Source: Rikenellaceae bacterium DTU002 (GTDB lineage Bacteria; Bacteroidota; Bacteroidia; Bacteroidales; UBA932). From it: a stretch of DNA of 33,397 bases. Of the stretch, positions 27,556 through 30,065 are shown piece by piece (position 1 is the stretch's first letter; every line of letters starts with the position of its first letter). The DNA lies in contig LFSY01000094.1 of the NCBI GenBank assembly GCA_001512865.1, positions 25,052 to 58,448 of the forward strand, written 5' to 3'. The notes below the pieces were generated by a model. It was not told where the DNA came from. It made no database searches and saw nothing but the letters and a program-made list of their open reading frames with translations. The translations under genes and the position numbers were made by a program.

Positions 27556-29184
27556 TCAGGCAGGGTCCACATCGATCCTGCAGCGGGCGGGAGCCAGGGG
27601 CATCTCCTTAACGGCCGCTGAAATGATTTCTTTCAGCGGCTGTATTTTCACGTTTTTTGGAATGGTGATCTGCAAGCGATAGGAAAACTGTACCATGCGT
27701 GTTTCAAACGGGAGGAAAGGACCTTCCGCCCTGGCCGGCCATTTCTCCTGTCCAAGACGGTTAAGGAGCATCGTTGCTTTTGTCAGGGCAGTCGTTTTTT
27801 TGTTGTGTGATACTGTGAGCATGATCATCCTTGTAAAAGGAGGATATCCGTATCGTTTTCGTTCCTCGAGCAGATGATGAAGAAAAGAATCGGAAAGGCC
27901 TTCCCGCAGGGCTTCATAGAAAGGATGATCCACATCGGAGCTTTGGAAAAAGACTGGGACCGGCTTATCCTGAGCGGCCACCCACCTCATAACGTTTCCG
28001 GCAGCGTGACAGGCTTGCTCGGTAGCACGAAAATGTTTTCTGGACAGGAGTTTTTCGGTATGCAGGAAAGAAATCATACCGATGTCTTTTCCAAGATGGT
28101 GGTGGGTCCGGAAAGGTTTGCAGACGGTAATCCCCGGAACCGGAACATGATTTTCAACTGACATCGGATCGGCTTCTACCAACAGGGCTTCCATGCCCTT
28201 GTCAAGACATTCCCTGAGTGCCCCGTACGAGCGTACATCCAGGAACCCTTTCATGTTTTTTTGAACAAACGGATCGGATGTATCGGTGATGATGATCCTG
28301 TTCTCCCGGTCCGTAACCCTGTCCGGTGTTTTCAGGTGCCCGAATTTCCCGGTGACCGTATTGTGTAGCGTTTCCAGTGAAGGAACGGCAGATCCCAGCA
28401 ATACCCGGGAACCATATATCTGTCCCATCATGAGCGCCGTATCCCTGGCATGCAGGTGAGGGGCGGAATCGTTCCGTTTGTGGCCCGGGTGCTCTTCCCT
28501 TTCTACAACAATAAGACCCGGATCCGTAAAAGGAAGAAAGAGAGACTGCTGCATTCCTGTGACAACGACCGGATTGCCTGCATAAAGTTCTTTTTTTGCC
28601 CGGCTCTGCTCCCTGAGAGGCCTTTTGGAATGAAAACAGATCAGTTGTTCCTTGAAATCCGGAAGCAGTTTTTCATAGATACTTTCACAGGAAACCATGT
28701 CCGGACAGATGATAAGACACTGTTGTCCCCGGGAGAGCGTCTGTCGTACATGCTCCCTGTAAATTCCCGTACGGTCAGGTCCTTCCGCATACAACGGTTT
28801 GCCCGGTACGGGCACATGGTCCCTTTCCTCGGATACGGATTCGGCCCTTCTTCTGAAAGAATACATGGAAAGGCCTGTTTTGGCGACCATTCCCGGCGGG
28901 CACATATAGTAACGGGCTATCCATTCCCAGAGAACGAGGGCGTTTTCCGAAACGATGGGCAGTGCGTTGACAATTTCAACAATATCCCGGATCTCTTTCG
29001 GGTCACTCACTGCCCCGGTATGTTCCGCCACATTGAAAATCACACCGGTATGTATGCCTTTACCAACGGGGACCTTTACCTGTTGTCCCCTCTTTGCCGC
29101 TCCGGCAAGTTCTTCCGGGACCCTGTACGTAAGCAGTCCTTCCAGGGCCAAAGGCAACAGAATATCGGCGTAAATCCCTTTCAT
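27556..29184 (-). CDS. PriA-like primosomal protein N' homologue lacking helicase and zinc-binding motifs (putative pseudo-helicase)
   Basis: N-terminus YADILLPLALEGLLTYRVPEEL and LVLWEWIARYYMCPPGMVAKTGL; VLLGSAVPSLETLHN; C-terminus ERKRYGYPPFTRMIML...RIDVDPA are PriA-like. Walker A position reads GPDRT; no Cys cluster; no GRxGR. Confidence 0.88.
   Translation of the reverse strand: MKGIYADILLPLALEGLLTYRVPEELAGAAKRGQQVKVPVGKGIHTGVIFNVAEHTGAVSDPKEIRDIVEIVNALPIVSENALVLWEWIARYYMCPPGMVAKTGLSMYSFRRRAESVSEERDHVPVPGKPLYAEGPDRTGIYREHVRQTLSRGQQCLIICPDMVSCESIYEKLLPDFKEQLICFHSKRPLREQSRAKKELYAGNPVVVTGMQQSLFLPFTDPGLIVVEREEHPGHKRNDSAPHLHARDTALMMGQIYGSRVLLGSAVPSLETLHNTVTGKFGHLKTPDRVTDRENRIIITDTSDPFVQKNMKGFLDVRSYGALRECLDKGMEALLVEADPMSVENHVPVPGITVCKPFRTHHHLGKDIGMISFLHTEKLLSRKHFRATEQACHAAGNVMRWVAAQDKPVPVFFQSSDVDHPFYEALREGLSDSFLHHLLEERKRYGYPPFTRMIMLTVSHNKKTTALTKATMLLNRLGQEKWPARAEGPFLPFETRMVQFSYRLQITIPKNVKIQPLKEIISAAVKEMPLAPARCRIDVDPA
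27614..27640 (+). terminator. Candidate mltD terminator inside the priA-like 3' coding region
   Basis: Perfect 10-bp inverted repeat GCCGCTGAAA-TGATTTC-TTTCAGCGGC followed by TGTATTTTCACGTTTTTT, about 60 nt past the mltD stop. Confidence 0.45.
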
Positions 29185-30065
29185 TACAGGTTACGGACTT
29201 TTTCGGCGACCTTTTCCATAAGCCAGAACGGGGTGGAAGTCGCTCCGCATATTCCGGCCAGATCTCCCGGGCGGAACCATTGGGCAGAAATATCCCCGGG
29301 ATTCTCTATCGCATACGTCCGTGGGTTGGCCTCTTTGCAGATGCGGAAAAGGACTTTTCCGTTGGAACTTTCTTTTCCCGCCACAAAAAGTATGATGGAT
29401 TTGCTTTTGGCAAAACGGATCAGGGCTTCCTGACGGCCGTTGACCTGGGCACATATGGTGTTGAAGATTTTCAGTTTTCCCGTATCCAGTCCACTTTTTT
29501 GCATCAGTACGCGTATGTTGTCGGCTGTTTTTTTGTATTCATCGGGGTTTTTTGTGGTCTGTGAAAAAAGAGACACCGGCCCTTCGGGAAGGGTGATCTT
29601 ACCCGCTTCCCTGTAGTTTTCCACTACGATGGCATCTCCGTCCACCTGACCCAGCAGGCCTTCCACTTCTGCATGTCCTTTCTTTCCGAAGATAAGGATC
29701 TTGCCGTTGTCCGGTCTGATCCGGGCGTATTCCTGTTTGATCTTTTTCTGTAACTGAAGTACCACGGGGCAGGTGCACTCCAGAAGATCAATATTACGGG
29801 ACGCAGCAATTTCATAAGTGGAGGGAGGTTCTCCGTGCGCGCGTATGAGCACCGTGGTATTGGCAGGCAGGTCGGACAGGTCTTTCCGCCCGATCACTTT
29901 GAGCCCTTTGGATTCCAGCCGGTGTAATTCTTCGTTGTTGTGAACGATGGCTCCCAGTGAGTACACTTCCCGGTTGGTTTCAAGGGCCTTTTCGGCACAG
30001 GTTATGGCACTGATAACCCCGCTGCAGAAGCCTGATCGTTTGTCTATTTCAACGTGATACCCCAT
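29184..30065 (-). CDS. ispH: 4-hydroxy-3-methylbut-2-enyl diphosphate reductase
   Basis: Three cluster Cys in RSGFCSGV, LECTCPVV, NTICAQVNGRQEA; GAIVHNNEELHRLESKGLKVI; SGATS-type end GICGATSTPFWLMEKV. Confidence 0.95.
   Translation of the reverse strand: MGYHVEIDKRSGFCSGVISAITCAEKALETNREVYSLGAIVHNNEELHRLESKGLKVIGRKDLSDLPANTTVLIRAHGEPPSTYEIAASRNIDLLECTCPVVLQLQKKIKQEYARIRPDNGKILIFGKKGHAEVEGLLGQVDGDAIVVENYREAGKITLPEGPVSLFSQTTKNPDEYKKTADNIRVLMQKSGLDTGKLKIFNTICAQVNGRQEALIRFAKSKSIILFVAGKESSNGKVLFRICKEANPRTYAIENPGDISAQWFRPGDLAGICGATSTPFWLMEKVAEKVRNL

Follow-up and report, generated by a model that had tools for sequence, protein, structure and literature searches.

The window that we analysed, a stretch of 33,397 nucleotides, carries at positions 27556-29184 (minus strand) the gene of a PriA orthologue that has kept its 3'-end-binding domain, both RecA-like lobes and its C-terminal domain. 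The degraded protein, here called pseudo-PriA, is not the product of a pseudogene; it is kept under selection, and constraint has gone mainly from the catalytic positions. We consider it quite likely that pseudo-PriA, the only PriA detected in its genome, is a vertically inherited pseudohelicase that serves as a motor-less platform for fork recognition and DnaB reloading, a role that we infer. Loss of the PriA helicase recurs in Bacteroidales by two routes. The features of the locus are the following.

27556-29184, minus strand: pseudo-PriA reading frame, 542 aa, ATG start (profile and PDB matches)
28870-29184, minus strand: 3'-binding domain, residues 1-105, retained (Pfam PF17764; dN/dS 0.10-0.16)
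28795-28869, minus strand: short linker at the winged-helix position, residues 106-130 (alignment; variable, dN/dS 0.20-0.94)
28315-28794, minus strand: helicase lobe 1, residues 131-290, fold retained (NCBIfam and PDB alignments, AlphaFold, Foldseek)
28759-28782, minus strand: former Walker A, GPDRTGIY, residues 135-142, without the Lys/Thr of a P-loop (alignment)
28489-28503, minus strand: former motif II, EREEH, residues 228-232 (alignment)
28378-28395, minus strand: motif III, GSAVPS, residues 264-269, kept (alignment)
27850-28314, minus strand: reduced helicase lobe 2, residues 291-445 (AlphaFold, Foldseek; dN/dS 0.14-0.26)
28132-28167, minus strand: approximate junction at the missing eight-Cys zinc region, residues 340-351 (alignment)
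28081-28113, minus strand: motif V position, FRTHHHLGKDI, residues 358-368 (alignment)
27985-28008, minus strand: motif VI position, HAAGNVMR, residues 393-400 (alignment)
27559-27849, minus strand: PriA C-terminal domain, residues 446-542, retained (PF18074, 25.5 bits; dN/dS 0.13-0.32)
29184-30065, minus strand: ispH, directly upstream of priA (stop/start overlap TAATG; ispH-priA order kept across the genus)

The initial annotation had described an uninterrupted 542-codon frame, coupled to ispH through TAATG and PriA-like at both ends, and this description held. A Pfam search of the 542-aa protein matched PF17764 (PriA_3primeBD) to residues 7-105 with 78 bits (4.2e-22) and PF18074 (PriA_C) to residues 449-541 with a score slightly below the cut-off of 26.9. 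In the structure-sequence alignment the C-terminal domain followed PDB PriA up to the last residues, and its residues R442, P448, P449 and D540 were invariant across 56 aligned sequences. Solved PriA structures aligned to pseudo-PriA in three stretches (best E 4.6e-31). The NCBIfam PriA models matched in two or three stretches and far below their cut-offs, TIGR00595 scoring 146 bits against the 230.35 at which an equivalog is called. The AlphaFold 2 model had a mean pLDDT of 91.5 and showed two RecA-like lobes; because the 56-sequence alignment from which it was built includes intact PriAs, which pull the model towards PriA, these values speak for compatibility with the fold and are not an unbiased prediction. 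Comparison with E. coli PriA structures had been proposed at the outset, and the top PDB match returned by Foldseek was 6dcr, E. coli PriA without its winged helix (TM 0.83 by query length).

At the positions where intact Bacteroidales PriAs read GxTSSGKTEIY, VDEEH, GSATPS, GTQMxxKGLDF and QVSGRAGR and carry 8 Cys, pseudo-PriA lacks ATPase motifs I, II, V and VI, with an altered Walker B. The motif readings first given for motifs II, III, V and VI were reproduced, those of motifs II and VI at the same coordinates; GPDRTGIY at Walker A was likewise correct in sequence, while its coordinates had been given as 28768-28782 and needed correction to those listed above. A regular-expression check of the whole 542-aa protein found no GK[ST], GRxGR, DExH/D or CxxC, so that the motifs are not merely displaced, and the idea that they had moved elsewhere in the protein was rejected. 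The eight-Cys zinc module, also reported missing, is indeed absent, its region measuring about 13 aa as against 63 aa in the intact reference. The winged-helix domain is gone as well (about 27 aa as against 171 aa), and these two blocks account for most of the residues missing relative to intact PriAs, which in other Bacteroidales families occupy open frames of about 770-860 aa in all but one case and have at least 8 Cys. Some genera of the host GTDB family f1, for example those of G015-G018, G027, G028 and G031 (L052-L055, L063, L064 and L067), have a winged-helix region of only 20-43 aa beside intact motifs I, II, III and V and intact zinc cysteines, which separates winged-helix loss from helicase loss. 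Pro/Thr/Ala-rich insertions were seen within PriA loops of G007, G009 and G010 (L044, L046 and L047).

Among five residues that we take to form the SSB-tail pocket of Klebsiella PriA (W82, Y86, K370, R697 and Q701), four are identical in pseudo-PriA, W82, Y86, K370 and Q701 corresponding to W88, Y92, K280 and Q515; a single offset brings the letters of W82, Y86 and K370 into agreement with the deposited chain, and for R697 and Q701 the correspondence was taken from the alignment by eye. We sampled the host genus with 13 genomes, each of a different species; 9 reach a completeness of 90% or more, and the host genome is an 84%-complete draft. In the 12 of these whose main SSB was found, that protein has the C-terminal sequence DDLPF, and DciA, which partners DnaB in other bacteria (PMC9825169), is present in 13/13. 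In E. coli, PriA engages the leading strand through its 3'-binding and C-terminal domains and the parental duplex through its winged helix and lobe 1, and it also contacts lagging-strand ssDNA; its zinc region pivots to form a pore and exposes the PriB site (PMC10175261), and it exposes the DnaT site as well (PMC13377028). Since PriB docks on the zinc region in E. coli (PMC10175261) and that region is absent here, the 'PriB/DnaT-like' loader suggested in the initial annotation is not a natural comparison, and DnaB reloading must either differ or bypass PriA. The ATPase-dead E. coli variant K230A still allowed DnaB to be loaded in vitro (PMC10175261). Taken together, the retained fork- and leading-strand-reading parts, the SSB tail, DciA and the precedents of K230A and D. 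radiodurans make a motor-less fork marker and reloading platform the likeliest role.

In such a mechanism, pseudo-PriA would recognise abandoned replication forks, holding the nascent leading-strand 3' end with its 3'-binding domain and the fork arms with lobe 1 and the C-terminal domain, and would dock on the SSB tail. The DnaB-reloading machinery would then be recruited without lagging-strand unwinding and without a zinc-region pore. Pseudo-PriA would act where the lagging strand of the fork is single-stranded beforehand, or another helicase would expose that strand. Pseudo-PriA probably lacks ATPase activity, binds forks and supports DnaB reloading, and in bacteria with a motor-less PriA broken replication forks are probably marked but not unwound. 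One could instead suppose that pseudo-PriA has taken on a function unconnected with replication restart, given that motor, zinc region and winged helix are all lost and that lobe 2 contains a genus-specific conserved stretch, RKHFRATEQ. However, the parts kept are precisely the fork-reading domains and most of the SSB-tail pocket, and the SSB tail is canonical; we regard a new role as unlikely.

Within the host genus, priA has a pairwise NG86 dN/dS of 0.15-0.20, as against 0.03-0.15 for seven neighbouring genes, which indicates a somewhat weaker constraint than theirs. Lobe 1 (0.09-0.20) falls in line with the other domains listed above, and constraint is loosest in the linker that replaces the winged helix. 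Close pairs overall, nearly all of them pairs of degraded PriAs, gave 0.07-0.38. The P-loop catalytic Lys is thus lost from a gene under purifying selection, the combination of a Deinococcus-type pseudohelicase. A decaying remnant on its way to loss would be compatible with a dN/dS above that of the neighbours, with the long branches in the PriA gene tree and with the lack of any detectable PriA in some genomes of the GTDB family. Yet frames are open in every sampled species, dN/dS is mostly below 0.3, and the 3'-binding and C-terminal domains are conserved. We therefore reject the pseudogene, which the dN/dS values and conservation across 13 species make improbable, in agreement with the initial annotation. 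For G007 and G010 (L044 and L047), dS was 0.47 in priA and 1.35-2.74 in those neighbours for which an estimate was obtained, which may mean that recombination exchanged priA without its neighbours.

Site by site, the Walker A columns had a median entropy percentile at the 83rd in the host genus as against the 10th among intact PriAs, and the motif VI columns moved from the 14th among intact PriAs to the 61st. It could be argued that an unusual site lets the degraded lobes go on binding or hydrolysing nucleotide, since many members keep motif III and an acidic EEH/DEEQ patch; with the P-loop Lys and the motif VI Arg lost and these columns variable, we find this very improbable.

The degraded PriA lies beside ispH in 13/13 sampled species of the host genus, and ParB, DUF5683-type, MltD-type, IspH, Cmk, response-regulator and kinase genes are shared neighbours in all 13. 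Ten of the 12 relatives matched pseudo-PriA over nearly its full length (39-55% identity); in G007 the matches came in pieces, all inside one open frame, and in G009 the gene was broken by a run of assembly Ns. The priA frame was accordingly single and uninterrupted in 11/12 relatives and broken only by assembly Ns in the twelfth. In its broad outline the PriA gene tree agrees with the RpoB+RpoC tree, and the ispH-priA order is conserved, as orthology by descent would have it. Intact PriA was sought both in relatives and elsewhere in the genome, as first suggested: none of the 13 genomes had a PriA above the TIGR00595 cut-off, and in the 84%-complete host genome no second PriA was detected, only matches to other helicases. 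The one C100 hit lies in a 1178-aa frame, putatively Mfd-like by its length, and was set aside. In G023 (L059), IspH and PriA form one 969-aa open frame, and a frame of the same length in G253 suggests gene fusion within that lineage. That pseudo-PriA is an artefact of assembly or of a frameshift, or that the genome holds an intact PriA at another place, might be argued from the draft state of the host genome but is scarcely credible given the same protein in 13 species, the lack of a second PriA, and parallel degraded forms in other genera and in a second family, f83, with single-contig genomes.

Beyond the genus, 295/399 surveyed genomes of f1 had a PriA above the TIGR00595 cut-off. We aligned low scorers together with intact controls and classed them by motif. 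Degraded zinc-less PriAs occurred in five genera: g1 (12 aligned plus G009), g13 (3), g14 (1), g19 (4) and g23 (56, a number that is not a rate because the g23 set was picked from low scorers). In g23 they coexist with species bearing intact PriA. On the RpoB+RpoC tree of 40 genomes at least 5 changes are needed, and the starred branches force 5. That all degraded forms in f1 share one origin was rejected on RpoB+RpoC (p-AU 1e-6), as it was with G376, whose placement is unsure, left out (p-AU 2e-42). The idea that one degraded gene had passed from genus to genus was also rejected, the PriA gene tree separating g1+g19, g13, g14 and g23, although its starred branches alone force only 2 changes. 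Because the species tree and the gene tree place G376 differently, we limit the claim to at least 4 independent losses within f1. Every aligned f1 PriA that has the zinc region keeps GK[ST], and three (G025, G355 and G419) have GK[ST] without the zinc region, which suggests that zinc was lost before or with the P-loop. Five genomes without a TIGR00595 match (G323, G396, G397, G304 and G237) contained PriA-like pieces by our own profile. In six others (G022, G342, G365, G385, G389 and G393) neither TIGR00595 nor this profile found PriA, the only matches lying in long frames typical of other helicases; the absence may be true loss or an assembly gap.

An order-wide survey of Bacteroidales placed 285/295 genomes above the TIGR00595 cut-off. 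The family f83 stood out by low scores, with a match in 37/38 genomes, and includes single-contig genomes of 99% completeness. We aligned 32 f83 PriAs (L230-L233 and L238-L265), one of them a fragment without motifs I-III. The P-loop is gone in 31/31 aligned over motif I and motif VI in 32/32; the same 31 keep 8-10 Cys and a winged-helix region of 118-199 aa. Most f83 members still score above the TIGR00595 cut-off, which is therefore blind to this type of loss, and the order-wide count of losses is a lower bound. The helicase loss in Bacteroidota that the initial annotation had read as one independent event was real but not single, having occurred several times within f1 and by another route in f83. 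More tentatively, and at somewhat less than even confidence, we propose that in Bacteroidales PriA has lost its motor and become a fork marker on at least five occasions and along two routes, in one of which zinc went before or with the ATPase, and that restart there proceeds without pore or zinc switch, perhaps with DnaB brought in through DciA. A large set of Bacteroidales species dispenses with the motor; one set also lacks the zinc region, which cryo-EM studies identify as the key switch of restart in E. coli (PMC10175261, PMC13377028). The natural stepwise intermediates, with zinc lost and P-loop present or zinc kept and P-loop lost, bear on which PriA parts restart needs. A gene annotated as 'primosomal protein N'' need not encode a helicase. 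A literature search found no paper on PriA helicase loss in Bacteroidota, which is not proof that there is none.

Actinobacterial PriA is described in UniProt/HAMAP as having no detectable helicase motifs, in bacteria that are not known to have an identifiable DnaC, DnaT, PriB or PriC. We liken it to pseudo-PriA by description only, as an orthologue without helicase motifs. M. tuberculosis PriA has been termed a 'helicase loader' (PMC5694481). The helicase motifs of PriA have been described as well conserved, Deinococcus-Thermus being singled out as an exception; Deinococcus radiodurans PriA was shown biochemically to be a pseudohelicase without ATPase that binds forks and DnaB, so the PriA pseudohelicase as such is already known (PMC4504706). 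What appear to be new are the number of independent losses and the set of domains lost, above all the zinc region, which in E. coli forms the ssDNA pore and acts as the primosome switch. Deinococcus PriA and pseudo-PriA are both evolutionarily kept orthologues with degraded Walker A/B, and fork and DnaB binding without ATPase, shown for the former, would by analogy be expected of the latter. In Deinococcus the Walker A Lys is replaced by Arg and Walker B is poor, whereas pseudo-PriA has lost motifs I, V and VI altogether, together with its winged helix and zinc region. The f83 PriAs resemble pseudo-PriA in ATPase motif loss but keep at least 8 Cys and the winged helix. With E. coli and Klebsiella PriA (6dcr, 8fak and 4nl8) pseudo-PriA shares the 3'-binding domain, two RecA-like lobes and the C-terminal domain, and it differs from them in having neither the ATPase motifs, nor the zinc region with its pore, PriB site and DnaT gate, nor the winged helix.
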